DNA of 64,000 nt from positions 496,001-560,000 of the forward strand of contig NZ_FNSD01000001.1 of NCBI RefSeq assembly GCF_900105625.1, written 5' to 3'. A model generated the notes under the pieces. The model did not search any database, had not been told where the DNA came from, and was given only the letters and a program-made list of their open reading frames with translations. The DNA is from Terriglobus roseus. GTDB lineage: Bacteria > Acidobacteriota > Terriglobia > Terriglobales > Acidobacteriaceae. The position numbers were made by a program, and so were the translations under genes. Shown piece after piece: positions 3,725 to 20,886 of this stretch. How positions within the stretch are numbered: the stretch's first letter is position 1; each line of letters opens with the position of its first letter.

Positions 3725-3770
3725 GAGATCCTCCTGCAATCTCAGGATGCGCCGGTACCCATTGCATTTC

Positions 3771-4545: not shown

Positions 4546-6582
4546 TCACTTCAAGCACGCGTCGGTGTAAACATTCCTGGCATTCCAAAGGGACCAGCCG
4601 TCAGCGTGGGCGTCCGTGGCTGCACGGGTTTGTGATGCGACCTCTGCAGCGCCAAATGGACGGCGTGAGAACGCGTAATCGCGGAAGCCCTGGATCCACG
4701 GCCGGAACATCTTCGGATCAGCATGGGTGCGCTTGATCGATTCCTCGAGTGAGAGTCGAACGGTCTGGTAGATGTCTTCATTCGTGCCCACGGGATTTGG
4801 GTGCCCGGGGATGCCAAAGCTGAATCCTGAGGGATAGAGCATAGGACACACGTAGTCCACTGCCGGCACGATCTCCTCAAGCCGCTGACCAATGCCGGTG
4901 TCATTCCTGTTCCACAAGACATAGCCGAAGATGTCGACAGACAGGAACGCGTTGAAGGGCTCGAGTGCTTTGTGCGCTTCCGCCAAGAAACTGGTGACTG
5001 CCTTCACGCGGCCAGCTTCGTCGGCGGTTCCGCTGAACTGCAGCTTCTGCGGGCAATCGGGGAAACGCACATAGTCGAACTGCACCTCATCGAAGCCCGC
5101 CTTCGCAGCTTCAACCGCGATGGCGATGTTGTAGTCCCGTACCTCGCGACGGAAGGGATCTGTCCACGAGAGGTGTTCCCTGTCCTTGAACAACCCACCT
5201 GAATTCAAGCGAACTCCATATTCAGGATGTGCCGTAGCAAGCGGATCGTCTTTGAAGGTGACGATCCGTGCGATGAGATAGATGCCCTTGCTATGAAGAT
5301 CCGTCACCAGGTCGGGCAGTGAGCGGATGGTTGTCATCCTGCGCGCACCGATCTGTGTTGCAAGCGGGATCGCGCTCGGATAGGCAAGGTTGCCTCGATC
5401 AGACTTGATCGTGATCACGAGCGCGTTGGCGCCGCCTCTCCGAATGATATCGAGCACTGGCTCGCGCAGTGCCTTGGAAGCGATGCCATATTCCGTGAGA
5501 TACAAGGCATGAACTGCGATGGGACGTAGTGAAATCGTCGACTGCTCACGCAGCGCCGCGATGTCTGAGTGGTAAGGCCAATAACCGATCGCGCGCGCAC
5601 TCACGGACTTTGCGGATGCCGCAATCTCAATGCTGCCGGAGCCGTCTACTGGCGCGGTTCTGCCATCGATCACGACCGTAACGCGCGACACTGCTTTGCC
5701 CGTGTTGGCGTCGGTGATAAGCACGCGCTGCGATACAGCAGCAACGCAATCGCGGACTGTCCATATGCCGAAGGCAGCGAACAGGAGAACAAGACGCATC
5801 GCGTTCATCGCTTCTCCCCCAGCCTGGCTGCAGCCATCTGCTCGAGCACCGGGAAGCCTGCGAGACCAGGGTGATCGAGCAATGCGATGGATTGCCAATC
5901 TGGGATCGTTCGGCATTGCGATCTTTCCGTCGTATGCAAACGCGGCGGTATAGCCCGCCTGCTCCGCTGCCTGCATGAGGTCGTCATCGAAGATGCCGTA
6001 GGGCCACGCCAGCAAATGAACCTGTATCCCAAGGCGCTGTTCGAGAATTGAGCGAGACTTCACGAGCTGATCGTGAACCAGGGCCGCGTATGCCTGCCCG
6101 TCCAGTCGCTTCCGCTCCGCTCGGAAGTCGGGGTGCCAAAGCGTGTGAGACTCGATACGGACAAGCCCGGACGACTTCATCTCCTGCAACTGTTCCCACG
6201 TCAGCGCGTACGATGCCTTCGAGATGACGGTCGGATAGATGAATAAAGTGATGGGGATGTGACGGACTTTGATCAGCGGGTAAAGCTCGGTGTAGACGGA
6301 CCGATGCCCGTCATCGACCGTAATCGCCACTTGCCGAACGCTCGGCGGCAGGCGGTTCTCTGTCACCATGGACACGACATCCTGCAAAGGAACGATGCGG
6401 TAGCCATGCTTCGCGAGCCAGTCTATTTGCTCCACAAAATTTTCTGTAAGGACCGTGGTCGCACCCGTCTGTCTCTGGTCAAAGCGGTGGTATACAAGCA
6501 CAGGGATGCCGCGAACCGGATCGCGCTGCGCCTTCACGGGTAAAGGCCAAAGGATCAGCAGCAACAGGAACAACTTCGACAT
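4546..6582 (-). CDS. polysaccharide deacetylase fused in frame to DUF4015-type putative glycoside hydrolase (apparent frameshift fusion)
   Basis: One open frame of 678 codons holding two proteins. Residues 1-~232 are a NodB-type deacetylase with signal peptide (MSKLFLLLLILWPLPVKAQ), the Asp pair in VAITVDDGHRS, the metal His pair in SHTLWHPDF, and AWPYG. From residue 259 a second signal peptide begins (MNAMRLVLLFAAFGIW), followed by a putative glycoside hydrolase domain (RIVTFKDDPLA, FDEVQFDYVRFPD, VDYVCPMLYPSG). The ~26 bridging residues look unnatural. The neighbouring frame over the same bases reads IALLDHPGLAGFPVLEQM and stops with TGA at 5805-5807, forming an ATGA overlap with the ATG at 5808. 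The ancestral layout was therefore probably two coupled genes (4546-5808 and about 5805-6582). Both products would act on envelope or extracellular glycans. A CRP-type site lies at 6626-6641. Confidence 0.85.
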   Translation of the reverse strand: MSKLFLLLLILWPLPVKAQRDPVRGIPVLVYHRFDQRQTGATTVLTENFVEQIDWLAKHGYRIVPLQDVVSMVTENRLPPSVRQVAITVDDGHRSVYTELYPLIKVRHIPITLFIYPTVISKASYALTWEQLQEMKSSGLVRIESHTLWHPDFRAERKRLDGQAYAALVHDQLVKSRSILEQRLGIQVHLLAWPYGIFDDDLMQAAEQAGYTAAFAYDGKIAMPNDPRLAIHRIARSPWSRRLPGARADGCSQAGGEAMNAMRLVLLFAAFGIWTVRDCVAAVSQRVLITDANTGKAVSRVTVVIDGRTAPVDGSGSIEIAASAKSVSARAIGYWPYHSDIAALREQSTISLRPIAVHALYLTEYGIASKALREPVLDIIRRGGANALVITIKSDRGNLAYPSAIPLATQIGARRMTTIRSLPDLVTDLHSKGIYLIARIVTFKDDPLATAHPEYGVRLNSGGLFKDREHLSWTDPFRREVRDYNIAIAVEAAKAGFDEVQFDYVRFPDCPQKLQFSGTADEAGRVKAVTSFLAEAHKALEPFNAFLSVDIFGYVLWNRNDTGIGQRLEEIVPAVDYVCPMLYPSGFSFGIPGHPNPVGTNEDIYQTVRLSLEESIKRTHADPKMFRPWIQGFRDYAFSRRPFGAAEVASQTRAATDAHADGWSLWNARNVYTDACLK
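5805..5905 (-). other. junction of deacetylase and glycosidase reading frames (probable frameshift)
   Basis: Around 5880-5895 the deacetylase frame switches: in frame 1 the protein continues RSPWSRRLPGARADG into the next gene, while the alternative frame gives a plausible C-terminus ending MAAARLGEKR and TGA. The stop at 5805-5807 overlaps the ATG at 5808 as ATGA, the coupling used elsewhere in this window. No long homopolymer marks the slip point. Confidence 0.6.
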
Positions 6583-6625: not shown

Positions 6626-6641
6626 CGTGATGTGCGTCACA
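6626..6641 (-). promoter_or_regulatory. CRP/FNR-type operator between deacetylase and VIT1 genes
   Basis: CGTGA-TGTGCG-TCACA, one mismatch from the ideal palindrome. On the minus strand CATAGT lies at 6604-6599, exactly 29.5 bases from the centre, fitting a class II promoter for the deacetylase frame with a ~10-base leader. It could also serve the divergent VIT1 gene at 6704, but I see no -10-like hexamer at that distance on the plus strand. Confidence 0.6.
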
Positions 6642-6703
6642 GGCGGTCGAAAGAATCACGAATCGCCGTGACTTGTCACACCAACGACATGGGGGATTCT
6701 TCG

Positions 6704-7396
6704 ATGCACATCGAACGTCATCGCATCAATCGAGTCGGCTGGCTTCGTGCTTCGGTACTGGGTGCGAACGATGGCCTGCTGTCGACCGCCAGCCTCGTGC
6801 TTGGTGTCGCGGCAGCTCACGGAACACATCACGCCGTCCTGATCTCCGGCGCTGCAGGCCTTGTCGCCGGAGCCATGTCCATGGCCGCGGGCGAGTATGT
6901 CTCCGTCTCGTCGCAGGCTGACTCGGAGGCATCGGACCTTGAGCGCGAGCGGCAGGAACTCGCCACCGATCCTGTCGGCGAACACAGTGAGTTGAAGCAC
7001 ATCTATGTGAGCCGCGGCCTCACGCCAGAACTCGCAGCCGAGGTTGCAAAACAATTGATGGCAAAGGACGCGTTGGCTGCCCATGCTCGCGATGAACTGG
7101 GCATTGCAGACGGTTACACTGCCAGGCCAGTGCAGGCAGCGCTCGCTTCGGCTGCAAGCTTCGCAGCGGGCGCGGTGGTTCCGCTGATTGTCGGAGTTCT
7201 GGCCAGCCAACATTTAATCCCGCTTGTCGTTCTGACGTCCCTGGTGTGCCTGATGGTCCTGGGCGGTCTGGCCGCTCGCGCCGGCGGTGCGGGTGTGCTG
7301 AAGGGATCCCTGCGTGTCACCTTCTGGGGAATCCTGGCTATGGCCGTGACATTCGGCGTCGGCGCGCTCGTTGGAGAAGCAGTGCCGACTCTCTGA
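6704..7396 (+). CDS. VIT1/CCC1 family iron/manganese transporter
   Basis: 230 residues from ATG 6704 (GGGGGA 7 bases upstream). The N-terminal hydrophobic pair contains the family signature GANDGLLSTASLVLGV followed by GLVAGAMSMAAGEYVSVSSQ. A charged cytosolic loop (ERERQELATDP to LGIADGYT) and three C-terminal membrane segments follow. Relatives move Fe2+ or Mn2+ across the membrane for storage or detoxification. It ends 3 bases from the convergent small membrane gene. Within the island it suggests metal control during low-oxygen stress, which is inference. Confidence 0.9.
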   Translation: MHIERHRINRVGWLRASVLGANDGLLSTASLVLGVAAAHGTHHAVLISGAAGLVAGAMSMAAGEYVSVSSQADSEASDLERERQELATDPVGEHSELKHIYVSRGLTPELAAEVAKQLMAKDALAAHARDELGIADGYTARPVQAALASAASFAAGAVVPLIVGVLASQHLIPLVVLTSLVCLMVLGGLAARAGGAGVLKGSLRVTFWGILAMAVTFGVGALVGEAVPTL

Positions 7397-7803: not shown

Positions 7804-7819
7804 TGTGATGTCCATCACA
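7804..7819 (-). promoter_or_regulatory. CRP/FNR-type operator upstream of small membrane gene
   Basis: Perfect TGTGA-TGTCCA-TCACA. On the minus strand GATTCT (7781-7776) lies 30.5 bases from the centre, one base off the ideal class II spacing, about 20 bases before the ATG at 7756. Confidence 0.6.
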
Positions 7820-7870: not shown

Positions 7871-7913
7871 TGTGAGCGCGGTCACAGCGGCACGGTACTC
7901 CCGTCGCTACTTT
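7871..7913 (+). promoter_or_regulatory. CRP/FNR-type operator and class II promoter for USP 2
   Basis: Perfect TGTGA-GCGCGG-TCACA at 7871-7886. TACTTT at 7908-7913 starts exactly 29.5 bases from the palindrome centre, as in class II CRP/FNR promoters. Predicted start near 7920, about 13 bases before ATG 7933. Confidence 0.72.
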
Positions 7914-7932: not shown

Positions 7933-8859
7933 ATGAAAGGCAGTAATCCTATGTCGACCGCGGCTCCCACCAATTACCCCTACGCAATTCCTCACGAAAT
8001 CCTGCTTGCGTTCGATCCAGCGGATATGAATCAGAAAGCGATGGAGTGCTCCAAGTCGCTGGCGCGCCGCTTTGGATCGCATGTGACCATCGCGCACGTC
8101 AGCCAGCCGGTAAGTCCCATTGTGACTCCCGAAGGTATGTACTTCGAGGATCTGGACAGGAGCGCAGCCGCCATCACGGATTCCCAGTTAGACCAGGCGG
8201 TGGAAGATCTTCGCGCCAGCGGCCTGAAGGCCGACCGTGCCGAGCACTGGGGTCTTGTCACTGAGGAACTACAGAGCCTTGCACGCGAGAAGTCAGCCGA
8301 CCTGCTGGTGCTCGGGACCCATGCGCCTCGCGGCCTGGACCGCTTGTTCTTCGGTTCCACCGCCGAGGATGTAGCCGACCGCTCGGGCTGGCCGGTGATG
8401 ATCGTCGGGCCGAATGCGGACATGCCGAGCGGTGCCTGGGCACCAAAAGAAGTTGTCTGCATCGTTGGGCAGTCACGCGAAGACGTCAGTGCGGCAGTGT
8501 ACGGATACCACCTGTCTCGTGAAGTAGGCGCGGCGTTTACGCTGTTCTCCATTACTGACAAAGGCTCAGAAATTGCGAATCCCGTCGACAGCGAGGTCTT
8601 TTTTCGGAGCCTGGCGGACCAGCTCCCGGGCGTGAACGTCTCACACGAAATTCCACGGCGCGAAATCCGCCAGGGCATCGCGAAGGACTCTGTTCTCAGG
8701 CTTCTGAAAGCACTTCAGCCGGGAGCCGTGGTGATGGCTGCGGAGCATGCCGGCCCACTGCACAGCCACTTCCACCGCGATCTGCTGTCAGACGTTGTAG
8801 GAGAAGCAAAGTGCCCCATCATCGTCGTAGCTAAGGATGATCAACGTGCGCAGGGGTAG
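7933..8859 (+). CDS. universal stress protein, tandem UspA domains (USP 2)
   Basis: 308 residues (ATG 7933; ATG 7951 is an alternative with AAGG upstream). The first UspA domain has a nucleotide loop close to consensus, with Ala replacing the second Gly (GTHAPRGLDRLFFGS). The second domain ends KCPIIVVAK and lacks the full motif, as in the other tandem USPs here. It precedes the histidine kinase by 15 bases, so USP and kinase are probably co-transcribed from the CRP-type promoter at 7871-7913. Confidence 0.92.
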   Translation: MKGSNPMSTAAPTNYPYAIPHEILLAFDPADMNQKAMECSKSLARRFGSHVTIAHVSQPVSPIVTPEGMYFEDLDRSAAAITDSQLDQAVEDLRASGLKADRAEHWGLVTEELQSLAREKSADLLVLGTHAPRGLDRLFFGSTAEDVADRSGWPVMIVGPNADMPSGAWAPKEVVCIVGQSREDVSAAVYGYHLSREVGAAFTLFSITDKGSEIANPVDSEVFFRSLADQLPGVNVSHEIPRREIRQGIAKDSVLRLLKALQPGAVVMAAEHAGPLHSHFHRDLLSDVVGEAKCPIIVVAKDDQRAQG

Positions 8860-8874
8860 ACTGGACGCCTGACC

Positions 8875-10458
8875 ATGGCACAGCAGATGGAACACTTACG
8901 CAGTTCCCTCCCCAAGCAGGCGGGGACATGGTCGGATCCAGAGCGGTGGCTCGCTGCGATTGTGGAGTCATCCAACTCCGCCATCATGGCGGAGTCCCTC
9001 GAAGGCACCATCATGACGTGGAACGCGGCGGCATCCCGCATCTTCGGCTATACCGCGGAAGAGGCGATCGGTATGCCGGTCTTCGCGCTGGCGTGGCCGG
9101 GCGAAGAATCCATCGTGCGCGGGCTGCTGGATGTGCTGCGGCGCGGCGAACGTATCGATAACTTCGAAACCTCACGCAGACATAAAGACGGGCACCGGGT
9201 CTTCATCGCGCTGAGCCTCTTCCCCATCAAGGATGAAGATGACGTCGTAATTGGCATCGCCAAGATCGCGACGGACATCACCCAGCGAAAGGCGGCAGAG
9301 GCGGCAGAGGCCCAGACCCGCACGGAATTGCTGGCAGAGCGGAAGTATCGCGAAGTGATCGAACATGCGCCGGACGCAATTCTTGAGGTCGATGCCGGCG
9401 GCATCATCGTCATCGCCAATCAGACCGCGGAGAGACACTTTGGCTACCCGCGGGAGGAATTGCTGGGCGCTCCGATTGAGATGCTGATTCCCGCAGCGAA
9501 CCGCTCACAGCACGCATCGCATCGAGACGCTTTTATGCAGGCCGACCGGGCCAGGGCCATGGGCGAGGGACTCGACCTGAGCGCCCGGCGCAAGGATGGA
9601 TCTGAGTTTCCCGTTGAGGTCAGCTTGAGTCCCATCGTGATGGATAGCGGCGTTCTTGTCGTCGCTGCCATCCGGGACGTCACGGAACGGCGACGGTCCG
9701 ATCAACAGGTGCGCCTGTTGCAGGAGAGCTATCTCAGCGAAGTCTCCGCGCGTCAGCAGGAGGCAGAGCGCCTGAATCGCTTGAAGAGTGAGTTTCTGGC
9801 AAGCGTCAGCCACGAACTTCGCACACCCTTACACACCATCATCGGCTTTACGGATCTGTTGCATGAAGACCCTCAACACACACTTTCCGAACGCCAGTTA
9901 CGCTTCGTTGAAAACATCCGGCGCGATTCAGAACACCTTCTGGAACTCATCAATGATGTGCTCGATCTAAGCCGGATTGAAGCCGGTGGACTTACGATCC
10001 ATCCGGAAGAACTCTCGCTCCATCAGGCATTCACCGAGGCCATCGAAACCGTGCGGCTCTCCTGCGAAGCGAAGGCGCTGCGGGTGACCGTCTCGTGTGA
10101 TCCTGACCTCGTGTTGCTGGCCGATCCGACGCGTCTCCGTCAGATCCTTACCAACCTGCTGAGCAATGCGATCAAGTTCACCGCTCCCGGTGGCGCCATT
10201 CGCATGAAGGCAACCCGCGAACCGGGATTTGCGAAGATCTCGATCCGGGACAACGGTATCGGCATTGCCCCGGAAGAGCTCTCAAACATCTTCGGGAAGT
10301 TCTACCAGGTGGGCGTGACCACGGGCGGCGTGCGCGAAGGCACTGGCCTTGGCCTGGCGATCTGCAGAGAACTGGTGGAGACGCAGGGCGGCTCTCTCTC
10401 CGTCAGCAGTCAGTTGGGAACCGGAAGCATCTTCTCCTTCACCATGCCACTGCCGTAG
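8875..10458 (+). CDS. soluble PAS-PAS sensor histidine kinase
   Basis: 527 residues, no membrane segment, so a cytoplasmic sensor. PAS 1 spans about 25-135 (TMTWNAAASRIFGYTAEEAI, ending IATDITQRK), PAS 2 about 155-280 (ANQTAERHFGYPREELLG, ending IRDVTERRR). Then HisKA with H-box SHELRTPLHTIIGF and a HATPase domain with N-box NLLSNAIKF, G1 DNGIGI and G2 GTGLGLAI. It lies between a USP and a receiver-only response regulator and probably phosphorylates that protein or the nearby sigma-54 regulator. The PAS ligand (heme, flavin or none) cannot be told from sequence. Confidence 0.93.
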   Translation: MAQQMEHLRSSLPKQAGTWSDPERWLAAIVESSNSAIMAESLEGTIMTWNAAASRIFGYTAEEAIGMPVFALAWPGEESIVRGLLDVLRRGERIDNFETSRRHKDGHRVFIALSLFPIKDEDDVVIGIAKIATDITQRKAAEAAEAQTRTELLAERKYREVIEHAPDAILEVDAGGIIVIANQTAERHFGYPREELLGAPIEMLIPAANRSQHASHRDAFMQADRARAMGEGLDLSARRKDGSEFPVEVSLSPIVMDSGVLVVAAIRDVTERRRSDQQVRLLQESYLSEVSARQQEAERLNRLKSEFLASVSHELRTPLHTIIGFTDLLHEDPQHTLSERQLRFVENIRRDSEHLLELINDVLDLSRIEAGGLTIHPEELSLHQAFTEAIETVRLSCEAKALRVTVSCDPDLVLLADPTRLRQILTNLLSNAIKFTAPGGAIRMKATREPGFAKISIRDNGIGIAPEELSNIFGKFYQVGVTTGGVREGTGLGLAICRELVETQGGSLSVSSQLGTGSIFSFTMPLP

Positions 10459-10464
10459 CAGCCA

Positions 10465-10507
10465 TGTGATCTCGGTCACATCGCGCCACCCGGTGTGCAG
10501 CTATCTT
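10465..10507 (+). promoter_or_regulatory. CRP/FNR-type operator and class II promoter for response regulator
   Basis: Perfect TGTGA-TCTCGG-TCACA at 10465-10480, just after the kinase stop. TATCTT at 10502-10507 begins exactly 29.5 bases from the centre. Predicted start near 10514, giving a leader of ~39 bases before ATG 10553. Confidence 0.72.
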
Positions 10508-10552
10508 CATCGAATTGCCGATCTGCACGCCTCTTCTCTGCTGGGATTCTTG

Positions 10553-10921
10553 ATGATTGCGACTTGCCTTATCGCTGATGGAGCTGCCCTCGCGCGCGAA
10601 CTATTGCGGTCCATCCTGGAAGATATGGGGTTCGACCTGATGGAAGCGGCGAATGGAGAGCAGGTCGTGCGTCTGGCAATCCTCTTCCCACCGCACGTCA
10701 TCGTCATGGACATGGATCTGGCGAAGAAGAATGGCCTTGAGGTCATCGCGACGTTGAGGCGGCACGCTGCCTTTAAAGAGACTCCCATCATCGCCATGAC
10801 CTGTGTCTCTGCGGAGCACCACCCTGCGCGTCTGCGTCAGGCTGGTTTTACCGACGTCCTGGTGAAACCCATTCGCCCGGCAGCCCTGCGATCCCTGCTT
10901 CAGACCGTTCTGGCGCCTTAG
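10553..10921 (+). CDS. single-domain response regulator (CheY-like receiver)
   Basis: 122 residues consisting of one receiver domain and no output domain. Phospho-acceptor Asp is in HVIVMDMDLAKKNG, the conserved Thr/Ser position in IIAMTCVS, and the Lys in DVLVKPIRP. I start at ATG 10553; a longer in-frame start at 10349 would run through the kinase gene and the CRP-type site. It is probably a phosphorelay partner of the preceding PAS kinase. Its stop overlaps that of the convergent sigma-54 regulator by 4 bases. Confidence 0.88.
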   Translation: MIATCLIADGAALARELLRSILEDMGFDLMEAANGEQVVRLAILFPPHVIVMDMDLAKKNGLEVIATLRRHAAFKETPIIAMTCVSAEHHPARLRQAGFTDVLVKPIRPAALRSLLQTVLAP

Positions 10922-12264
10922 GAAGACAAGCCGTACTTATTCAGCTTGTAGCGAAGCGCATCGCGCCCAATCCCGAGGCGCCTTGCGCTCTCTGACTGGT
11001 TTCCCTTCGTCTCCCGATGGATCTGTTCCAGCAGCTGCCGCTCCTGCTCGGCAAGTCGGGAGACCGTCGCCGCCGGCGACGGCTGCGACCCTGCCACGAC
11101 ATCTGCCGGTAGATCTTCCCCTTCAATCAGTTCCCCCTCCGACAGCATGCAGGAACGTGCGATCACATGCTCAAGCTGCCGGACATTACCGGGCCAGTCA
11201 TAGCGGTTCAGAATCAGCTGTGCCCGAGGCGAGATGCCACGGACTTTCTTCTGGAACTCTGCGGAAAATCGAACTGCGAACTGACCGGCCAGCAGCTCAA
11301 TATCGTCCCTGCGATCGCGCAACGGCGGGACTTCAATCTCCACCATGGACAGCCGGTAGAAGAGATCTTCCCGAAAACGGCCCTCTTTGGCTTCCTGCTT
11401 TAGATTGCGATGGGTGGCGGCGATCACCTTCACGTTTACCCGCGTCGGAACGAGCGAACCTATTTTGTAGATCTCCTGGTTCTGAATGGCGCGCAGCAGT
11501 TTGGCCTGTGTTGCAATGGGCATATCGCCAACCTCGTCGAGGAACAGCGTGCCACCGTCAGCCGCGACGAACAGACCGGTCTTGTCCCGGTCAGCGCCGG
11601 TGAACGATCCGCGAGTGTGTCCGAAGAGCTCGCTCTCAAACAGCGTCTCCACGACGGCCGAACAATTCAGCACAACGAAGCGCCCCTTCACCCTGCTGCG
11701 CGCATGAATCGCCTGCGCAACAAGATCTTTGCCTGTGCCGGTTTCGCCCTGAATCAAGAGCGTCCGGAAGTGCGGCGCCACCTTGTCGATCAACGCGAAG
11801 ACGTTCCACATCGATGCACTCTTCGCCAGGAGCCCCTCAAAGCTGAAATCGTCGAACTGCGTCGAGGAGCGTGATAACGCCACCTTGCGGCTCTCGGCTG
11901 CGGCCAGTAGATGCCGGACACGGTCTCGAAGGGCGGCCACCCTGACTGGCTTCTGCAGGTAGTCTGCAGCACCGTTGCGTATGGCCTCGACGGCGGTCTC
12001 CGTAGTGTAGTGGGCCGTCATCAGGATGACGTTCGTGGCCGGCGCAAACGCCATGATCTCGCGCAGGACGTCGAGGCCGCTCAGCCCCGGCATCACCAGG
12101 TCCGTGATGACCAGCTGGGGCTTCAGCTTCCGCACCAGGTCGAGTCCAAGCACCGGGTCCGAAGCCGTGTGAATCGCGACATCCTTCTGCTCAAGTGCCG
12201 CAGTGAGCAGTTCCAGGCTGCTGAGGTTGTCGTCGATGATGACTGCGCGGATCAACTCGGCCAT
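10918..12264 (-). CDS. NtrC-type sigma-54-dependent response regulator
   Basis: 448 residues from ATG 12264. Receiver at 1-120 ([19 protein letters not shown]), AAA+ domain at about 145-375 with Walker A GETGTGKD and Walker [10 protein letters not shown], and a C-terminal Fis-type HTH ([20 protein letters not shown]). The sigma-54 contact loop reads GSFTGA instead of the canonical GAFTGA. It is divergent from the CRP/FNR-type gene and shares its intergenic region with a CRP-type palindrome at 12351-12366. It may be a second output of the PAS kinase; partner specificity is inference. Confidence 0.93.
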
Positions 12265-12350: not shown

Positions 12351-12366
12351 AGTGATTGATATCACA
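12351..12366. promoter_or_regulatory. CRP/FNR-type operator between divergent sigma-54 regulator and crp/fnr-like gene
   Basis: AGTGA-TTGATA-TCACA, one mismatch to the ideal palindrome. It is 60 bases before the regulator's own ATG and 87 before the sigma-54 regulator's ATG. No clear -10 hexamer lies at the class II distance on either strand, so it could serve autorepression rather than activation. Confidence 0.55.
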
Positions 12367-12426: not shown

Positions 12427-13110
12427 ATGTCCAAGTGCACGAACTGCCCACATGTTGGTAAGTACGCGTTCTGCAATTTGGGCGAAGCGGCCAGAAATTT
12501 TCTGGAAGCCAACTCCATCACCATGGAGTACCCGCGCGGCAATGTTCTTTTCCGCGAGGGCGAAGCGGCAGGGGCAGTCTTTCTCGTCTGCAGCGGCAAG
12601 GTCAAGTCCACAGCGACTTCAACCGAGGGCCGGTCGGCGATTCTGCGGCTTTCGGGACCCGGAGACGTGCTGGGCATGAGTGCCGTCATGGGCTCGACAC
12701 CCTACGAAATCACCGCGGAGGCCGTACTGCCAAGCCGGATTCGCGTGCTTCATGCGCGCGTCCTGCAAGAGTTCATGCGCGAGTTCAACGACGCCAGTCT
12801 TGGCGCCGCGCGCGCGCTCGCACAGGACTACCGATCCGCTTTCCACGAGATGCGCCTGATGGCGCTGCCGGAGACTCCCGCAGGTCGGCTGTCGCGCCTG
12901 CTCCTTGACTGGTCGGAAGAGAGCGCTGCCGCGGGAACGCCGCTCACCATGACGCTGACCCACGAGGAGCTGGCGTGCATGACGGCAACGACCCGCGAGA
13001 CGGTGACCCGGACCCTGAGCCGTCTTCGGAAGGAAGGCACCATCACCATCAAGGGCATCTCGCTGACAGTGCTGAAGCCTGCCGCACTCCGTCAGCTGGC
13101 AAGCTGCTAG
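12427..13110 (+). CDS. Crp/Fnr family transcriptional regulator with N-terminal cysteine cluster
   Basis: 227 residues from ATG 12427 with AGGAG 6 bases upstream. The N-terminus carries Cys4, Cys7 and Cys16 (CTNCPHVGKYAFC), reminiscent of the FNR iron-sulfur ligands; Cys55 (FLVCSGK) could be a fourth. A cyclic-nucleotide-binding beta-roll spans about 30-130 and a winged HTH lies near the C-terminus. The recognition helix contains RETVTR, matching the R-E-x3-R of E. coli CRP that reads TGTGA rather than the E-x2-S-R of FNR that reads TTGAT. It is the obvious reader of the palindromes in this island. The signal (oxygen, NO or redox) is inference. Confidence 0.92.
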   Translation: MSKCTNCPHVGKYAFCNLGEAARNFLEANSITMEYPRGNVLFREGEAAGAVFLVCSGKVKSTATSTEGRSAILRLSGPGDVLGMSAVMGSTPYEITAEAVLPSRIRVLHARVLQEFMREFNDASLGAARALAQDYRSAFHEMRLMALPETPAGRLSRLLLDWSEESAAAGTPLTMTLTHEELACMTATTRETVTRTLSRLRKEGTITIKGISLTVLKPAALRQLASC

Positions 13111-13169: not shown

Positions 13170-13754
13170 ATGGACTGCATCGAAACAATCCGGAACCGCA
13201 GGTCTGTTCGATCCTTCAGCGATCGGTCTGTGAACGCTGCCACGGTGCAGGATCTGATTGAGGCTGCAAGCATGGCTCCGAGCGCTCGGAATGCGCAGCC
13301 CGTCGCCTTCTGGACGTTCCTGGATGCCGACAGCATCGAGGCGCTAGGCCATCAGGTGAAGAACTGGATCATGCAGCATCCACCCAACGAACCATTTACC
13401 TCTCCGATGCGGCCAGTCCTCTCCGCGGCGGATTACCGTGTGTTCTATGGGGCTCCGGTCCTGATCCTCGTCCTGGCCACGTCCCGACAGGCAGACACAC
13501 GGGACGCGTGCTGTCTTGCAGCAGAGAACCTGATGCTGGCCGCGCGTTCCGCAGGGCTTGGTTCGGCATGGGTAGGTATTGCGACCGACTATTTCGAACT
13601 ACCAGAGACCAAACGCAAGCTGGCGATCCCTGAGAGCTACACGGTGGTCGCCCCCCTTGTTCTTGGGTATCCCACAGCATGGCCCGCCCCCACTGCCCGG
13701 CGCGCGCCCGAAGTACGCTGGTGCGCCCTGCCCCATCCGAGCCATCTCGCTTAA
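13170..13754 (+). CDS. nitroreductase family protein
   Basis: 194 residues. FMN-binding features of the family are present: RRSVRSFSDRSV near the N-terminus, MAPSARNAQPVAFW, and AARSAGLGSAWVGI. The C-terminus ends on LGYPTAWPAP. Relatives are NAD(P)H-dependent flavin reductases of nitro compounds, quinones or related substrates. It starts 59 bases after the Crp/Fnr gene and is probably co-transcribed. A nitroreductase-like protein is also a standard member of the mycobacterial DosR regulon. Confidence 0.9.
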   Translation: MDCIETIRNRRSVRSFSDRSVNAATVQDLIEAASMAPSARNAQPVAFWTFLDADSIEALGHQVKNWIMQHPPNEPFTSPMRPVLSAADYRVFYGAPVLILVLATSRQADTRDACCLAAENLMLAARSAGLGSAWVGIATDYFELPETKRKLAIPESYTVVAPLVLGYPTAWPAPTARRAPEVRWCALPHPSHLA

Positions 13755-13787: not shown

Positions 13788-14312
13788 TCACATTGCAGCC
13801 GCGTAGGTCGGGCGCACGGGCTTGGGAAGCAACGGCATCTGGACGTCTGGCGGGACCGTCGCTGCCTGTTCACATGGCAGCGCAACATGAAGCACGCCAT
13901 CAGAAATCCAGGCCGCAGAGCGAGATCCGCGAACCGTTTGCGGAAGCTTGACGCGTGCGTAGAACATCTTCGCTCCTCCATCCGCATTTTCTGTGTAGCC
14001 GCAGAGACCCAACAGGCTCCTCTCCGTGTGCAGGCGGATGTCTTCTGCGCGATAGCCACCCACCGGAACGCGTACGAGCATGCCGTCATTGCGAACGGTG
14101 GACGAGACTTCGGCCGGATCCAGAACAAGCTCCTCGGCAAACTTCCAGTCCTGCTCAGTAAGCGGTCCCTCCCAGTTTCTGGACTTCGGGATTTCAAGCG
14201 TCTTCGCACCGATGCACGACTCGATGTGATGGACCATCGAGAAGAATTCCATGGGAGTTGTTGCCCGGACCATCTCCGCCGTATTCGTCGCCGATTGCTC
14301 CATCACATGCAT
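13788..14312 (-). CDS. Hsp20/alpha-crystallin-like small heat-shock protein
   Basis: 174 residues; GAGGGAG precedes ATG 14312. The C-terminal ~100 residues resemble an alpha-crystallin domain: a strand pair (GMLVRVPVGGYRAEDI), a charged loop, MFYARVKLP and a closing SDGVLHVALP in the place of the family's A-x-x-x-n-GVL motif. The C-terminal tail is Pro-rich. Similarity is moderate and the N-terminal half is not recognised. As a holdase it would protect proteins during stress. A CRP-type site lies 103 bases upstream of its ATG. Confidence 0.72.
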   Translation of the reverse strand: MHVMEQSATNTAEMVRATTPMEFFSMVHHIESCIGAKTLEIPKSRNWEGPLTEQDWKFAEELVLDPAEVSSTVRNDGMLVRVPVGGYRAEDIRLHTERSLLGLCGYTENADGGAKMFYARVKLPQTVRGSRSAAWISDGVLHVALPCEQAATVPPDVQMPLLPKPVRPTYAAAM

Positions 14313-14414: not shown

Positions 14415-14430
14415 AGTGATGCCAATCACC
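14415..14430. promoter_or_regulatory. CRP/FNR-type operator between Hsp20-like and USP 3 genes
   Basis: AGTGA-TGCCAA-TCACC, one mismatch in each half. On the minus strand CACCGT lies exactly 29.5 bases from the centre toward the Hsp20-like gene; on the plus strand TGTCCT is at the equivalent place toward USP 3. Confidence 0.5.
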
Positions 14431-14507
14431 GAGGGCGGTAAATCAGGTCACTGTCCTGCGCGCGGAGTGCGCCTAGTTTGAGGTCAACAGCAATATCGGA
14501 GACCGAA

Positions 14508-15386
14508 ATGCCCGTGATCGGAAATCGCCCGGAAATAACCCTGGATGACATTGTTTTTGCCACAGACTTCGCTCCTGCATCCGCGCGGGCCGAGACCTAC
14601 GCAGCACAGATCGCCCGCCGCTACGGCTCGCGATTGCATGTCGTAACGGTTGTGGATCTGAACACACCCATTCCTGCGGGCGATGGAACCTGCGTGTTGC
14701 CCATTCAAGACCTGGTCGAAGCACGGCATGCACAATTGAATGCGCTGATCTCCAGGCTGTCCGGCGTTCAATCCGTACTACACGTGGCTGAGTCGTTCTC
14801 CGTGGCGCAGGCAATCCTGAATGTTGCCATGGAGTGCGGTGCCAACCTGATCGTGATGGGCACAACTTCGAAGGGCGCGCTCAAGAAGCTGGTCCTGGGT
14901 TCGGTCGCGGAGGAAGTTATCCGTACCGCGAGAATCCCGGTCCTGACGATCGGGCCACGCGTCGCTGCGAGCACCGATGCGATCGTGCCATTTCAGAAGA
15001 TCCTGTTTGCGAATGACATGAGTCCACAGGCGAACAAGGCGCTGCCGGTCGCGCTGGCATTTGCCGAAGATGGAGGCGCCCGTCTCGTTATCTGCCGCGT
15101 GAATAAGGGCGAAGGCTCCACGCTGCTGTCTGAGGATGACATCGCCCTAGAGAGTTCGCTGCTGAAGGCGCTGCCAGCGGCCGCGATCGACTGGTGCGAT
15201 CCAGAGTCCATCGTTGAGCATGGCAACCCATCGGAAGCACTGGTTGCACTGGCAGACCGCACGGGCTCCGACCTGATCGTGCTGGGATCGCGCCGCTCTA
15301 CCTTCCGGCTGGAATACCTGGAACGAGGCGTCACGCCCGCGGTCATCGCACAGGCGAAATGCCCCGTCCTTAGCCTGAGCGCTTAG
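14508..15386 (+). CDS. universal stress protein, tandem UspA domains (USP 3)
   Basis: 292 residues from ATG 14508 (CGGAGA 7 bases upstream). The first domain has a modified nucleotide loop (GTTSKGALKKLVLGS, Ser replacing the second Gly); the second domain (GSRRSTFRLEYLERG to KCPVLSLSA) lacks it, so ATP binding is uncertain. It heads a likely operon with the 48-residue membrane peptide, alcohol dehydrogenase and P-type ATPase. Confidence 0.92.
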   Translation: MPVIGNRPEITLDDIVFATDFAPASARAETYAAQIARRYGSRLHVVTVVDLNTPIPAGDGTCVLPIQDLVEARHAQLNALISRLSGVQSVLHVAESFSVAQAILNVAMECGANLIVMGTTSKGALKKLVLGSVAEEVIRTARIPVLTIGPRVAASTDAIVPFQKILFANDMSPQANKALPVALAFAEDGGARLVICRVNKGEGSTLLSEDDIALESSLLKALPAAAIDWCDPESIVEHGNPSEALVALADRTGSDLIVLGSRRSTFRLEYLERGVTPAVIAQAKCPVLSLSA

Positions 15387-15418: not shown

Positions 15419-15565
15419 ATGCCCGCATCTTCCATCCACCTGTCCCCGTTCCCCGTATGGCAAGTCAATCGTGGGCCCTCCACGCGCAGGCACTGGCTCA
15501 GCTATTTGCTGGGAGCCGCTTACATCGGCCTGCTGTTGACATGGCTTGCCGTGGTTGTGCTTTGA
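15419..15565 (+). CDS. 48-residue single-pass membrane protein
   Basis: A short frame with an ideal ribosome-binding site (AGGAGG at 15405-15410, 8 bases before ATG 15419). The first ~28 residues are polar (MPASSIHLSPFPVWQVN, then RGPSTRRHW); the rest is a single hydrophobic helix (LLGAAYIGLLLTWLAVVVL) running to the C-terminus. Arg/His before the helix predicts the N-terminus inside. It sits between USP 3 and the alcohol dehydrogenase, two genes upstream of the MgtA-type ATPase. Small single-pass proteins often tune transporters, so a role with the ATPase is possible but untested. Confidence 0.65.
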   Translation: MPASSIHLSPFPVWQVNRGPSTRRHWLSYLLGAAYIGLLLTWLAVVVL

Positions 15566-15611
15566 GTCGTTGTGCTTTGAAAGGATCCACGCACCGATGA
15601 TGGAAAGACCC

Positions 15612-16604
15612 ATGTCCCCGGTAAGCATGCGCGCGGCAATCTTCCGTGGGACTGGTTCGCTATCCGTAGAACAGGTGCCGACGCCGCAACCGGCGGCGGG
15701 CGAGTCCCTGATCAAAGTCCTCGCCTGCGGCGTTTGCCGCACCGACCTCCACATCCTGGAAGGGGACCTGCCCCAGCTTCAGCCGGCAATCATTCCCGGC
15801 CACCAGATTGTAGGGGAGATCGTGACCACATCCGGCAACCGCTTCGTCGCAGGCGACCGAGTCGGCGTGTCCTGGATGGGCGGCACCGACGGAACGTGTA
15901 AATTCTGCCGCAGTGGCAGGGAGAACCTGTGCGATCAAGCCGTCTTCACCGGCTACTCCCGCAACGGTGGCTACGCGGACTATGTCACGGCGCGCACAGA
16001 CTTTCTGATTCCTCTCTCAAGCGCGATGACCCCTGAGGTTACGGCACCGTTGCTGTGTGCGGGCATGATCGGCTTTCGCAGCCTTCGTGTTGCGGAGGTG
16101 AAGCCCGGCCAAAGGGTTGGCCTCTTTGGCTTCGGCGCGTCGGCCCGACTGGTCATGCCGGTACTGCGGTTCTGGGGATGCGAGGTCTATGTCTCGACGC
16201 GAGGCGAACGCCACCGTCAGGAAGCCGTCGCCATGGGTGCCGTATGGGTCGGCGATGCCTTCGACCAGCCGCCTGTGGCGCTCGACGCGGCCGTCATCTT
16301 CGCGCCGGTTGGCAGCGTGGTTCTTGCCGGTCTGAAGTCCCTCGATAAAGGCGGAATCGTCTCGATCAACGCCATTCACCTCGATGGGATGCCTGCCTTC
16401 GACTACGACTCAATCCTCTGGCATGAGCGCCAAATCCGAAGTGTCGCGAACATGACGCGACAGGATGCAACCGACTTTCTGAGCATCGCCCAGCAGATCA
16501 AGATCACTCCCGCAATCAGGGTCTTCCCCCTCGAGCAGGCGAAAGAAGCGCTGGCCGCCATCAAGGATGAAGACGTCGTCGGCTCTGCGGTCATCGTTCC
16601 GTGA
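15612..16604 (+). CDS. zinc-dependent alcohol dehydrogenase (MDR family)
   Basis: 330 residues from ATG 15612 (GGAAAG upstream; ATG 15597 and 15600 also in frame). Catalytic zinc ligands Cys in ACGVCRTDLH and His in IPGHQIVG are present. The structural zinc site is only partly standard: CKFCRSGRENLC supplies three Cys and the first (CPYC-type) position reads GGTDGTC. The Rossmann motif reads GLFGFGASA. It should reduce aldehydes or oxidise alcohols with NAD(P), useful in fermentative redox balance. Its stop overlaps the GTG start of the P-type ATPase (GTGA), so the two are translationally coupled. Confidence 0.92.
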   Translation: MSPVSMRAAIFRGTGSLSVEQVPTPQPAAGESLIKVLACGVCRTDLHILEGDLPQLQPAIIPGHQIVGEIVTTSGNRFVAGDRVGVSWMGGTDGTCKFCRSGRENLCDQAVFTGYSRNGGYADYVTARTDFLIPLSSAMTPEVTAPLLCAGMIGFRSLRVAEVKPGQRVGLFGFGASARLVMPVLRFWGCEVYVSTRGERHRQEAVAMGAVWVGDAFDQPPVALDAAVIFAPVGSVVLAGLKSLDKGGIVSINAIHLDGMPAFDYDSILWHERQIRSVANMTRQDATDFLSIAQQIKITPAIRVFPLEQAKEALAAIKDEDVVGSAVIVP

Positions 16605-19129
16605 GTGACCTGAGCAGATCGCAGCCAATTGATGCGAAGGACTACGTAGGCCTCACGACGCGGGAGGCAGCGGATCGCCTCAAACAGTTTGGAGGGAATG
16701 AAGCGTCGACGAAGCATCGGAAGGCGCCCTGGCTCGATCAACTACTGCTTCTCTTCAATCCCCTTTCCATCGTGTTGCTCGTTGCGGCCGCCATCTCCCT
16801 CTCCATTGGCGAACATTTCGATGCCATCCTGATCACGGCCATCGTTCTGATCGGCGGCGCCATCGACTTTGCGCAGACCTACCATGCACGCATCACCATC
16901 GAGCGTCTGCGGGCGACCGTCGCCGCAATGGCGACGGTTCAACGCGACGGCTCATGGCGGGACATCCCGCGGTCTGCGATCGTCCCCGGTGATCTGGTAC
17001 GCCTATCAGCCGGTGACCTGGTCCCGGCAGATGCGCGGCTCATTGAATCGCGCGACCTGGCTGTACTGCAAGCCATGCTCACGGGCGAATCCACATCGGT
17101 AGAGAAGGTAGCGACCGCCCAGGCCGCTTCCCAATCGGCGGACGCGACCAACATGATCTTCCTTGGAACGTCCGTAATCAGCGGCACCGGGACGGCAATC
17201 GTGACGGCAACCGGTCGCAATACCGCGTTTGGCGACATCGTCGCCCACCTTGCGTCCAGACCTCCCGAGACTGCCTTCGATCTGGGCATCAAGCGCTTCA
17301 GCTACATGATTGCCCGCATCGTCTTCGTCATGGTGCTGCTGGTCCTGGCGGCCAACCTTGCGATGCATCGTCCGCCGATGGAGTCATTGCTCTTCGCCGT
17401 TGCATTGGCCGTCGGTCTTACCCCGGAATTCCTCCCGATGATCACCTCCGTCACGCTGTCGCGGGGAGCGGTTGCAATGGCCCGCAAGCATGTCGTTGTG
17501 AAGCATCTTCCCGCGATTCAGAATCTGGGAAGCATCGACATCCTCTGTTCCGACAAGACCGGCACGTTAACCGCCGGCACCATGTCGCTGGTCACAAGTG
17601 CAGGGCCGGATGGCGTCGTGTCGACCACTGCGCTTGATCTCGCGGTCATCAACAGCAGCGTCCAGGCGGGCATTCGCAGCCCTCTGGATGCGGCCATTCT
17701 TGCTGCAGGTACTCAGACCGGACAAGCTACGAAGGTCGACGAACTTCCATTCGACTTCCAGCGCCGCCGACTGTCTGTGATCGTCGACCGTGCGGGCGAG
17801 CGCACACTCATCTGCAAAGGTGCTCCCGAAGGTATCTTCCCGCTGGTCACATCCCTGCTGGTCAACGGAGAGACGCAGCCGTCAACCAGCGAAGCCATCG
17901 TTCGCGCGCAGAACTACTGCATCGCCCAAAGCAGTCTCGGCTATCGTGTCCTTGCGGTTGCCGTAAGATTGCTGCCAATGCAGTCGCGCTACACGCTGGC
18001 GGACGAGTGCGCCCTGACGCTCTGCGGTTTCCTGTCCTTCGCCGATACGATCCTGCCCGACGCGGCCGAGACGATCGCTCGTCTGTTGCAGGACGGAGTC
18101 AGCATCAAGATCCTCTCCGGCGACAACGAACTTGTTGCGGCACACATCTGCGCAGAGGCTGGACTCAACGTCACCGAGATCGTACTGGGCAGCGACCTGG
18201 AATTAATGAGTGAGACGGCCCTCACGCAGGTCGCGGAACGGGCGAACGTCTTTGCCCGTGTCTCACCTCCACAAAAGCTTCGCATCCTGACAGCGCTGCG
18301 CAGGCGCGGCCATACGGTGGGCTTCATGGGCGATGGCATCAACGATGCTCCCGCACTCCACGCCGCCGACGTCGGCATCGCTGCGCCGCACGCGGTCGAC
18401 GTCGCGCAGGATGCAGCCGATGTCGTCCTGATGCAGCCGGGCCTTTCGGTACTGCATCAGGGCATTCTGGAAGGCCGGCGCGCCTTCGGCAACGTCATGA
18501 AATACCTGCTGATGGGGACCAGTTCGAACTTCGGTAACGTGCTCAGCATGGCCGCCGCCGCCGTTGCACTGCCATTTCTCCCGATGCTTCCGGCACAGGT
18601 GCTGCTGAATAACTTCCTGTATGACCTTTCGCAGTTGACCATCCCAACGGACCGCGTGGATGCGGAGTATTTCGCACAACCGCAGAAATGGGACATCGCG
18701 ATCATTCGTCACTTCATGATCCTGGTCGGTCCCATCAGTTCCGTCTTCGACTTTCTGACCTTCTATGTCCTTCTACATTTCTTCCGGGCTGGTGAAACCG
18801 AGTTTCACACGGGGTGGTTCGTGGAATCCCTTGCGACACAGACGCTCGTGTTGTTGGTGATACGCACCGTCAGGTCGCCCTTTCAAAGCCAGCCAAGCTG
18901 GGGTCTCCTGGCATCCGTGGTGCTCATCGTGGCGACCGGCATCTGGCTGCCCTACTCACGCTTCGCGGCGAGACTCGCGTTCAGCCGTCTGCCTTTGAGT
19001 TACTTCGTGTTTCTGTCCTTGGCAACGCTCTGCTACCTGGCGCTTGTCGAAGTAGCAAAGCGCTACATCATGGCACGTGCCAGGCAGCGAGTCTTCCAAT
19101 CGCGCACGAAGGAGGTCGTGCAGGCCTGA
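16601..19129 (+). CDS. mgtA: MgtA-type magnesium-translocating P-type ATPase
   Basis: 842 residues, GTG start overlapping the previous stop by 4 bases. The N-terminal cation ATPase domain is followed by membrane segments, actuator loop LTGEST, and the phosphorylation site LCSDKTGTLT preceded by VVVKHLPAIQNLGSIDI, which is typical of MgtA rather than Ca2+ pumps. The hinge reads MGDGINDAPALHAADVGIA. The C-terminal membrane part keeps MgtA-specific blocks (LLNNFLYDLSQLTIP, FMILVGPISSVFDFLTFYV, RLPLSYFVFL). It imports Mg2+ at the inner membrane using ATP. Placement in a stress operon recalls CtpF of the DosR regulon. Confidence 0.9.
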   Translation: MSDLSRSQPIDAKDYVGLTTREAADRLKQFGGNEASTKHRKAPWLDQLLLLFNPLSIVLLVAAAISLSIGEHFDAILITAIVLIGGAIDFAQTYHARITIERLRATVAAMATVQRDGSWRDIPRSAIVPGDLVRLSAGDLVPADARLIESRDLAVLQAMLTGESTSVEKVATAQAASQSADATNMIFLGTSVISGTGTAIVTATGRNTAFGDIVAHLASRPPETAFDLGIKRFSYMIARIVFVMVLLVLAANLAMHRPPMESLLFAVALAVGLTPEFLPMITSVTLSRGAVAMARKHVVVKHLPAIQNLGSIDILCSDKTGTLTAGTMSLVTSAGPDGVVSTTALDLAVINSSVQAGIRSPLDAAILAAGTQTGQATKVDELPFDFQRRRLSVIVDRAGERTLICKGAPEGIFPLVTSLLVNGETQPSTSEAIVRAQNYCIAQSSLGYRVLAVAVRLLPMQSRYTLADECALTLCGFLSFADTILPDAAETIARLLQDGVSIKILSGDNELVAAHICAEAGLNVTEIVLGSDLELMSETALTQVAERANVFARVSPPQKLRILTALRRRGHTVGFMGDGINDAPALHAADVGIAAPHAVDVAQDAADVVLMQPGLSVLHQGILEGRRAFGNVMKYLLMGTSSNFGNVLSMAAAAVALPFLPMLPAQVLLNNFLYDLSQLTIPTDRVDAEYFAQPQKWDIAIIRHFMILVGPISSVFDFLTFYVLLHFFRAGETEFHTGWFVESLATQTLVLLVIRTVRSPFQSQPSWGLLASVVLIVATGIWLPYSRFAARLAFSRLPLSYFVFLSLATLCYLALVEVAKRYIMARARQRVFQSRTKEVVQA

Positions 19130-19862: not shown

Positions 19863-19906
19863 GGTGACGCACATCACAGCTTTCATCTGCCCGTTCGCTC
19901 TAGGTT
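19863..19906 (+). promoter_or_regulatory. CRP/FNR-type operator and promoter for USP 4
   Basis: GGTGA-CGCACA-TCACA at 19863-19878, one mismatch. TAGGTT at 19901-19906 starts 30.5 bases from the centre, one base beyond the ideal class II spacing. GTG start at 19924. Confidence 0.62.
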
Positions 19907-19923: not shown

Positions 19924-20886
19924 GTGGGCTCCGTTTCGAAACTACCGGCAGTGCGCTCCTCTGAACCTTCCGTCGCGGTCGACCTCGCGGCTCCTGCGCT
20001 CCAGTTGAAACGCGTGACGGTGTGCACAGACTTTTCCGAAGTATCGGCACCAGCCGTCGACGAGGCCTATCGCCTCTGCCTTCGCCACCACGCCGCGCTA
20101 AGCATTCTCTTTGTCCTTGAGCATGACGATCTCTCCGAATGGCCCGATGCAGAGAAAGAACTGGCACTGCTGGGTCTCCAGCGTCGCCACGAGCTGGACC
20201 TTATGGCTGCGCGACTGGCGACACCGTCCGTTGTGGTACGACCCATCTTTCTGGACGGGAACGCGTCCACCGTTCTTCTGCAGGCAATCCAGGGCGAAAG
20301 CCCTGATCTGGTCGTCGTCGGAACGCATGGCCGGCGCGGGATCGACAGACTCCTGCTCGGGTCCACCGCTGAGGCCATCGTCCGAAGCGCGGAGTGTCCG
20401 GTGATGACAGTTGGGCCGGGTGCGCTGCGGGCCCATGATCATGCTGCTGGGCCCATCGTATGCGCCACGGACTTCCACGACGGTGCGGAGGAATCCGTCG
20501 CCTATGCCGCGTTCCTCTCCGAGCAGCACCAGGTACCGCTGCACTGTATTCATGTGCTGCCGATGTCCTCCATTGCCACCAAGAATCACATCGTCGCGAC
20601 GATCATGGAAACAGCGCTTGTCGACCTGCAGATGTCGTCCGGGAAGAATGCATTTCAGCCTTCAAGTCGGGCGGTCTTCGGTCGAGAGGTCAGTCGTGCC
20701 GTAGTGGAATACGCACGCGAGGTCCACGCGTCGGCCATTGTCCTCAGCGTTACCCGGCGAACCAGTCTGTCCTCGCATCTGCCCCTGCGCAGGACCTCAC
20801 GCATGCTCATCCTTGCGAACTGCCCCGTGTTCACGCTCTCTCACGAGAAGCACGTCTCGCCTCTGCTTCGCTCAACCGTGATGTAG
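19924..20886 (+). CDS. universal stress protein, tandem UspA domains (USP 4)
   Basis: 320 residues, GTG start with GGAGG 7 bases upstream. The first domain keeps the complete nucleotide loop (GTHGRRGIDRLLLGS); the second does not (SVTRRTSLSSHLPLRR to NCPVFTLS). It has an extra N-terminal ~25 residues compared with USP 3. It marks the right end of the stress island and converges on the outer-membrane protein gene. Confidence 0.92.
   Translation: MGSVSKLPAVRSSEPSVAVDLAAPALQLKRVTVCTDFSEVSAPAVDEAYRLCLRHHAALSILFVLEHDDLSEWPDAEKELALLGLQRRHELDLMAARLATPSVVVRPIFLDGNASTVLLQAIQGESPDLVVVGTHGRRGIDRLLLGSTAEAIVRSAECPVMTVGPGALRAHDHAAGPIVCATDFHDGAEESVAYAAFLSEQHQVPLHCIHVLPMSSIATKNHIVATIMETALVDLQMSSGKNAFQPSSRAVFGREVSRAVVEYAREVHASAIVLSVTRRTSLSSHLPLRRTSRMLILANCPVFTLSHEKHVSPLLRSTVM

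Follow-up and report, generated by a model that had tools for sequence, protein, structure and literature searches.

A Crp/Fnr-family regulator of Acidobacteria that probably senses low oxygen through a four-cysteine iron-sulfur cluster with one ligand displaced relative to FNR

The regulator gene and its surroundings

The stretch of DNA analysed here, referred to as the window, comprises 64,000 nucleotides of a host genome of 4.81 Mb in 2 contigs. It contains a gene for a 227-residue protein whose matches to the Pfam models PF00027 (cNMP_binding, 1.7e-17), PF13545 (HTH_Crp_2, 9.9e-18) and PF00325 (9.4e-9) place it in the Crp/Fnr superfamily. The gene lies among others that encode, in particular, universal stress proteins (Usp).

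2798-3739, minus strand: Usp, proposed target
6668-7396, plus strand: VIT-family protein, proposed target (start inferred; a longer open reading frame runs from 6455)
7933-8859, plus strand: Usp, proposed target
8875-10458, plus strand: PAS-PAS histidine kinase
10493-10921, plus strand: single-domain response regulator (start inferred)
10918-12264, minus strand: NtrC-type sigma-54 response regulator (inferred start, 12264), in divergent orientation to the Crp/Fnr gene
12427-13110, plus strand: Crp/Fnr-family regulator of 227 residues (ATG at 12427, stop at 13108-13110)
13170-13754, plus strand: nitroreductase-family protein
14478-15386, plus strand: Usp
15546-16604, plus strand: alcohol dehydrogenase family protein
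16601-19129, plus strand: cation P-type ATPase
19924-20886, plus strand: Usp, proposed target

Orthologues of the regulator are found in Terriglobus roseus DSM 18391 (87% identical, two copies) and in Bryocella elongata (56%), and the host is accordingly a relative of Terriglobus (Acidobacteria). The T. roseus island is syntenic with that of the window. Because the 12.7-kb stretches round its two regulator copies (NC_018014.1, L048 and L049), which lie 460 kb apart, are identical to the letter, the island there has undergone a recent large duplication. The order of the kinase (8875-10458), the lone receiver (10493-10921) and the NtrC-type regulator (10918-12264) is the same in T. roseus, and parts of the set occur at other orthologue loci; as far as the available description of the NmpRSTU oxygen system of M. 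xanthus goes, the set is reminiscent of that system. The 174-residue open reading frame at 13788-14312 on the minus strand matched none of the Pfam and NCBIfam models at the thresholds applied, and T. roseus has an open reading frame in the same place (L048:7315-7968).

Cysteines of the sensor domain

The following parts of the coding sequence bear on sensing and DNA reading.

12436-12447, plus strand: C4 and C7 codons (CxxC), aligned with FNR Cys20 and Cys23
12472-12474, plus strand: C16 codon, third Cys of the N-terminal triad
12589-12591, plus strand: C55 codon, proposed relocated fourth ligand, in predicted strand 50-56 (beta-3), within VFLVCSG
12994-13011, plus strand: core of the recognition helix, RETVTR (R190-R195)
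13105-13107, plus strand: C227 codon, final residue; of 98 proteins, all 9 distinct members of the orthologue clade have this Cys, and just 2 besides

The protein has cysteines at positions 4, 7, 16 and 55, plus C184 and C227. The earlier note had described its N terminus as FNR-like, and in a profile alignment to E. coli FNR C4 and C7 indeed fell on Cys20 and Cys23. C16 supplies the third cysteine, the place held by Cys29 in FNR, after a longer loop (CxxCx8C, compared with CxxCx5C in E. coli FNR), a difference in spacing that the note had also pointed out. C55 aligned with Arg72. At Cys122, the fourth ligand of FNR, R106 was aligned, and therefore the window regulator has no Cys122 counterpart, as had been claimed. 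Lack of conservation had been named as evidence against the importance of the cysteines, and the opposite was found: when the window protein was aligned with 27 relatives sharing 28-87% identity with it (28 rows, mainly matches of a regulator search in 41 genomes), only 13 columns proved invariant, and C4, C7 and C55 account for three of them, with R190, E191 and R195 among the rest.

The distribution of the cysteines was analysed in a larger set. A profile search of 297 acidobacterial genomes gave matches in 215. Among the matches listed, a four-cysteine family scored about 195 bits and up and other full-length proteins below 150 bits, and between these values lay a single row of 187 bits together with copies that were partial or had no HTH. 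A set of 142 distinct rows, free of duplicates, was assembled from the family members, 20 other proteins (the first full-length rows below the gap among the matches listed), the host paralogues, and E. coli FNR and CRP. This set is without G293:C1:448343, G002:C1:1812476 (at least 195 bits), L079, L088 and several second matches of the 41-genome search; an earlier set of 148 rows includes duplicates and L079.

The triad and C55, with no Cys at the position of FNR Cys122, occurred together in 98 of the 142 proteins, all acidobacterial and including the window regulator. Neither triad, C55 nor C122 was present in 37. C55 without the full triad was seen in four (L130, L154, L158 and L167), the triad and C122 without C55 in two (E. 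coli FNR and a Rhizobiales protein), and the triad without C55 or C122 in one acidobacterial protein below the score gap (L187). Thus, 98 of the 99 acidobacterial triad proteins read carry C55, and the Cys122 position is without Cys in all 99. A further protein, from a separate search, combines CxxCx8C with C122 and has Tyr at position 55; it is from Bernardetia (Bacteroidota). From these counts, the fourth cysteine appears to have two alternative places, never both in the proteins read, which strengthens the earlier proposal of C55 as a candidate replacement for Cys122.

The four cysteines are also lost together. All 12 family members without C55, which have R, Q, L, Y or D instead, are without the triad as well, and they form about four groups (L144; L156 and L159; L166; and L119, L163, L140, L155, L157, L148, L149 and L151). 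On a tree from which the cysteine columns had been left out, in which several forks are unsettled and some branches are long, parsimony required 5 changes of C55 and 10 of the triad. An independent-pairs test, which has little power with only 4 well-supported pairs, averaged 3.3 pairs in favour and 0.0 opposed, with a median p of 0.25. The loop that precedes the third cysteine of the triad was x8 in 89 of the 98 triad-plus-C55 proteins, x5 in 7, x6 in 1 and x7 in 1, and x5 is exactly the spacing of FNR.

We read C4, C7, C16 and C55 as a single putative cluster site whose fourth ligand would have moved from strand beta-8 to strand beta-3. These two strands are neighbours within the sensor sheet. 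Alternatively, the triad alone might carry the cluster with a non-cysteine or external fourth ligand, leaving C55 as a conserved packing residue. Such an arrangement would accommodate L187 and the four proteins in which C55 persists although the triad is incomplete, and Asp is documented as a fourth ligand in the available text on B. subtilis Fnr. However, it would not predict the near-constant presence of C55 in the acidobacterial triad proteins, its loss in step with the triad in the 12 members without it, or its absence from the three triad proteins that have C122, and we consider it unlikely, if the best placed of the alternatives to the four-cysteine site.

Three other cysteines were rejected as ligands of this site: C184, which is Cys in 1 of 98 proteins; a Cys found in many relatives three positions before the Cys122 column, which is not a general ligand because the window protein has Ser there; and C227, which is placed outside the core site of the family because its conservation is confined to the orthologue clade. 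C227 could modify the core site.

The family is called acidobacterial as far as we looked, in acidobacterial genomes, Bacillota and a plasmid collection. At E <= 1e-40, 87 of 299 genomes of Bacillota (the phylum of G335, Desulfosporosinus) gave a match, the best at 166 bits and so below the approximately 195 bits of the family. None of the 30 Bacillota loci read has C55 or the full triad; L250 has CxxC and a Cys at the Cys122 position. The plasmid collection gave 2 weak matches, one in Bernardetia that is FNR-like with C122 and one in Methylobacterium that has neither.

An AlphaFold model of the regulator (mean pLDDT, 87.4; residues 1-10 average about 56) was compared with known structures. 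By VIA-align, the six best PDB entries were FNR with its cluster (Z, 25.4-26.9), the top five of these being A. fischeri holo-FNR, as wild type and as four variants (Z, 26.0-26.9), a modest margin over the first non-FNR entry, GlxR, at 24.4. One VIA-align alignment starts with model residue 4 on FNR residue 20. In Foldseek, GlxR and M. tuberculosis CRP led by E value and holo-FNR was tenth, and the top TM-score (0.90) belonged to FNR. Sequence searches of the PDB ranked M. tuberculosis CRP and GlxR first, and hhalign scored CRP and FNR equally. The best NCBIfam model, FtrB, remained under its cut-off, and the match to the curated FNR model NF008365, at 46.8 bits, fell short of the 228 bits required. 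Because the rankings differ between methods, the likeness to FNR rests on the cysteines and not on overall similarity.

CRP contacts cAMP through E72, R82, S83, R123, T127 and S128. All six positions are changed in the regulator, to M84, Y93, E94, D134, A138 and F139, and identity as a cAMP-type CRP was rejected on account of these replacements. A different possibility is that the four cysteines form a structural zinc site or a disulfide switch in a protein that senses redox, peroxide or a ligand. The arrangement CxxC-xn-C-x38-C is plausible for either, the orthologue clade has an extra cysteine in C227, and overall similarity does not favour FNR alone. In contrast, the profile alignment of C4 and C7 with FNR cluster ligands, the variation of loop lengths from x5 to x8, with x5 identical to FNR, and the position of the sites described below, which precede genes of a low-oxygen type, all speak against this possibility; we regard zinc or a disulfide as improbable and rank it behind a cluster held by the triad alone.

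The recognition helix and its sites

R190-E-T-V-T-R195 aligned with R180, E181 and R185 of CRP and fits the R-E-x-x-x-R pattern, whereas FNR has a V-E-T-x-S-R helix. From this helix the earlier note had predicted TGTGA half-sites and had reported such sites around the gene, and both statements agree with what follows. Sites of the form TGTGA-N6-TCACA in the part of the window near the gene were these.

3771-3786: perfect, 32 bp before the Usp open reading frame at 2798-3739 (minus strand)
6626-6641: one mismatch, between the VIT-family gene (plus strand) and a divergent open reading frame at 4546-6582 (minus strand)
7804-7819: perfect, 67 bp from the 7871 site; the pair has the same spacing in T. 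roseus
7871-7886: perfect, 47 bp before the Usp open reading frame at 7933
10465-10480: perfect, between the kinase and response-regulator genes; in the same place in T. roseus
12351-12366: AGTGATTGATATCACA, one mismatch, ending 60 bases before the regulator ATG in the 162-bp gap to the divergent NtrC-type gene
14415-14430: two mismatches, between the divergent open reading frames at 13788-14312 (minus strand) and 14478 (Usp, plus strand)
19863-19878: one mismatch, 46 bp before the Usp open reading frame at 19924

With up to one mismatch, the window contains 10 sites compared with 1.87 expected, a number reached in none of 100 shuffles, and four of them are perfect (3771, 7804, 7871 and 10465). 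FNR sites are of the TTGAT type. TTGAT-N4-ATCAA was not enriched in the window, with 3 compared with 1.2 expected and 12 of 100 shuffles reaching 3; the hybrid TTGAT-N5-TCACA occurred 9 times compared with 3.4, and 6 of the 9 are TGTGA sites read with a mismatch. Over the whole genome there were 11 perfect sites compared with 2 for the reversed pattern, 4 of the 11 within 9 kb of the gene, and 126 compared with 52 at up to one mismatch. Combining 39 sites gave the motif (T/A)GTGA(T/C)-N4-(A/G)TCAC(A/T), in which only the flanking and central positions inform because the sites were picked by pattern. The base following TGTGA in these 39 is T or C, seldom A.

The number of sites follows the presence of the regulator. 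In 41 genomes, with presence called at E <= 1e-20, the median number of perfect sites was 5 in the 27 genomes with a regulator and 1 in the 14 without (Mann-Whitney p, 7e-6, phylogeny ignored; 4 of the 27 and 7 of the 14 are less than 90% complete). The same comparison within the genus, 12 against 7, gave p 4e-4, and in a sister family (f2) it gave p 0.08 (phylogeny ignored in both). Among 31 acidobacterial regulator genes, 12 are preceded within 400 bp by a site with up to one mismatch, compared with 0 of 31 for the reversed pattern; at up to two mismatches the numbers were 17 and 4. No site with up to one mismatch lies in that range at the other 19, which include L002 and the Bryocella orthologue L050.

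Several sites are retained among orthologues. In T. roseus the sites lie at the same places with changed central bases, the two sites before the usp gene again stand 67 bp from each other, and the one preceding the regulator is letter-identical to that at 12351-12366. In G008 and G012, whose orthologues are about 60% identical, one-mismatch sites lie on either side of the kinase gene: the first separates it from the Usp gene, and the second is directly behind it, which in G012 is before the response regulator. G008 has a one-mismatch site before the Crp/Fnr gene as well. In G002 a site beside a Usp gene is kept, and only two-mismatch sites precede the regulator. The Bryocella island adjoins [NiFe] hydrogenase genes, which have one-mismatch sites at L050:9968 and L050:10270, the former inside the longest reading of the hydrogenase small-subunit open reading frame.

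The sites also go with Usp genes. A site with up to one mismatch lies just upstream of 6 of the 9 Usp genes of the genome (16 domains; p, approximately 2e-12, binomial with uniform site density); these sites were examined to approximately 2.88 Mb of the genome, and all nine Usp genes lie before that point. Other genes beside sites encode a VIT-family protein, a response regulator, CBS, P-type ATPase and DUF308 proteins, acetate kinase, cytochrome c oxidase subunit I and a transglycosylase-associated protein. Some sites are near genes with no evident low-oxygen role, such as those for an HlyD-type and an amine-oxidase-type protein. The stretches scanned for the nitroreductase and alcohol dehydrogenase genes contain no site within two mismatches, so sites cover the island only in part.

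Elsewhere in the genome, a second site-rich cluster (G000:C1:1701424-1720182; L054 and L055) comprises genes for CBS, Usp, P-type ATPase, DUF308, Usp, acetate kinase and Usp. A perfect site at L056:7388 lies between a gene that is glmS-like by eye and the cytochrome c oxidase subunit I gene, 2.4 kb from L002. Another, at 3820341-3820356 of G000:C1 (L060:4342), is just before the gene of a Crp paralogue that lacks the triad and has the helix GRPTVS, a possible regulatory link.

R-E-T-V-x-R is found in only 2 of the 12 host Crp-HTH proteins over the cut-off, the window regulator (P0001) and its paralogue L002, both with four cysteines. Because L002 has the same helix, the assignment of each given site to the window regulator and not to L002 is putative. 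That the sites belong to another reader altogether, be it a cAMP-type CRP, Rex or L002 only, is the least probable of the alternatives: the available literature gives S. aureus Rex the same motif, L002 shares the helix, and genomes with only an L002-like match (G003 and G013) also have sites, but none of the 12 host proteins adds a further R-E-T-V-x-R, the Rex N-terminal domain (PF06971) was not found in the genome, and G008, where the only match at E <= 1e-20 is of the P0001 type, keeps one-mismatch sites beside the Usp and kinase genes and the regulator. Rex was rejected as the reader both on the lack of a PF06971 match, in a search whose control matched in 7 of 14 genomes, and on the T or C after TGTGA.

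Proposed mechanism and known systems

Our preferred reading, in which we have good confidence, is that the protein is a sensor of oxygen (or of NO or redox state) that works like FNR, with a four-cysteine iron-sulfur cluster that includes C55 as its fourth ligand, TGTGA sites and a low-oxygen island. The cluster, most likely [4Fe-4S], would be held by three cysteines of the N-terminal loop (C4, C7 and C16) together with C55 in beta-3 of the sensor domain. At low oxygen the cluster would be intact, and the dimer would bind (T/A)GTGA(T/C)-N4-(A/G)TCAC(A/T) through its CRP-type RETVTR helix. The regulator may thereby control its own promoter and activate an island for low-oxygen survival, comprising the Usp proteins, the PAS kinase with its response regulators and the VIT-family protein, as well as a second locus with a P-type ATPase, a CBS protein and acetate kinase. 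Judged from sequence, the regulator thus probably senses low oxygen through a cluster with one Cys displaced relative to FNR and probably switches on nearby survival genes; iron-sulfur as the metal, contact of C55 with the cluster, oxygen as the signal and activation as the effect are all what we infer.

Two residues suggest how such a sensor may be tuned. The position of FNR Asp154 is Ala138 in the regulator and Ala in 76 of the 98 triad-plus-C55 proteins, and Pro8 directly follows C7. In the available text on FNR, Asp154 to Ala raises aerobic activity and a Pro after Cys23 lowers oxygen sensitivity (PMC6659574). Because Pro8 and Ala138 match these changes, they suggest that the sensor tolerates some oxygen. 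A wider proposal, towards which we lean with less assurance, is that the family consists of phylum-wide oxygen sensors in which beta-3 (C55) has taken over from beta-8 (Cys122) as the seat of the fourth ligand, the four cysteines are kept or lost as a unit, the Pro after C7 and the Ala at the Asp154 position set a nanomolar-to-micromolar oxygen range, and the island is dormancy-like (Usp, kinase, acetate kinase and P-type ATPase).

The regulator shares with E. coli and A. fischeri FNR the N-terminal triad, the best VIA-align matches and the absence of a cAMP pocket. It differs from them in lacking Cys122, which C55 replaces in the covariation, and in the x8 loop in place of x5; E. coli FNR further has Asp154, VETISR and TTGAT sites where Ala, RETVTR and TGTGA are found here. 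With E. coli CRP and actinobacterial CRP/GlxR, the last of which with M. tuberculosis CRP gave the closest PDB chains by sequence, it shares R180/E181/R185, but E. coli CRP has no N-terminal triad and the six cAMP contacts checked are changed here. The FNR of Acidithiobacillus ferrooxidans, as far as the available text describes it, has a changed ligand set and a natural Ala154; it keeps Cys122 and lacks Cys29, whereas the window regulator has the whole triad and no Cys122.

Bacillus Fnr is an iron-sulfur oxygen sensor with the consensus TGTGANNNNNNTCACA and, according to the available text, already reads TGTGA-N6-TCACA. The operator of B. subtilis and B. cereus Fnr is thus the one enriched and predicted here, and an Alkalihalobacillus homologue (L052) has the helix RETVNR. 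The ligands of B. subtilis Fnr are described as C-terminal Cys with Asp as the fourth, in contrast to the N-terminal Cys and C55 proposed here, and the C-terminal Cys cluster motif of Bacillus-type Fnr is absent from the regulator, which has one terminal Cys (C227). R-E-T-V-x-R is also common among the cysteine-free acidobacterial and Bacillota Crp/Fnr proteins read. The earlier note had presented the union of an FNR-type sensor with a CRP-type helix as a departure from the textbook pair; both elements are present, but because the helix is common and an iron-sulfur Fnr already reads this operator, the mixture is ordinary. What appears unusual is the putative relocated ligand and a regulator found throughout the phylum.

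Acidobacteria are abundant in soil and respire at nanomolar oxygen. The family is a concrete candidate for a low-oxygen switch of the A. capsulatum type, and it offers a natural experiment on where in the FNR fold a fourth cluster ligand can be placed. In the available text of the A. capsulatum transcriptome study, usp genes, a histidine kinase and alcohol dehydrogenases are strongly induced as oxygen falls, and a term search of its main text gave no mention of FNR or Crp. The literature drawn on, as far as its text was available, is PMC9603854, PMC11841059, PMC3520743, PMC11636273, PMC8407424, PMC8151001, PMC2883068 and PMC6659574. In the open-licence PMC literature we found no description of a C55-type ligand (beta-3, no Cys122), of an acidobacterial FNR or of the HTH-less copies of the regulator.

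These HTH-less copies come from short genes that immediately follow the gene of the full-length regulator in other genera of the family and encode the sensor domain and the dimer helix in approximately 125-165 residues from the start of the match. The four cysteines are intact in 3 of the 5 read (L015:2294-2746, L080 and L082); of the remaining two (L081 and L014), one is without the triad and C55 together and the other is without the triad and keeps C55. Such proteins could act as inhibitory dimer partners.
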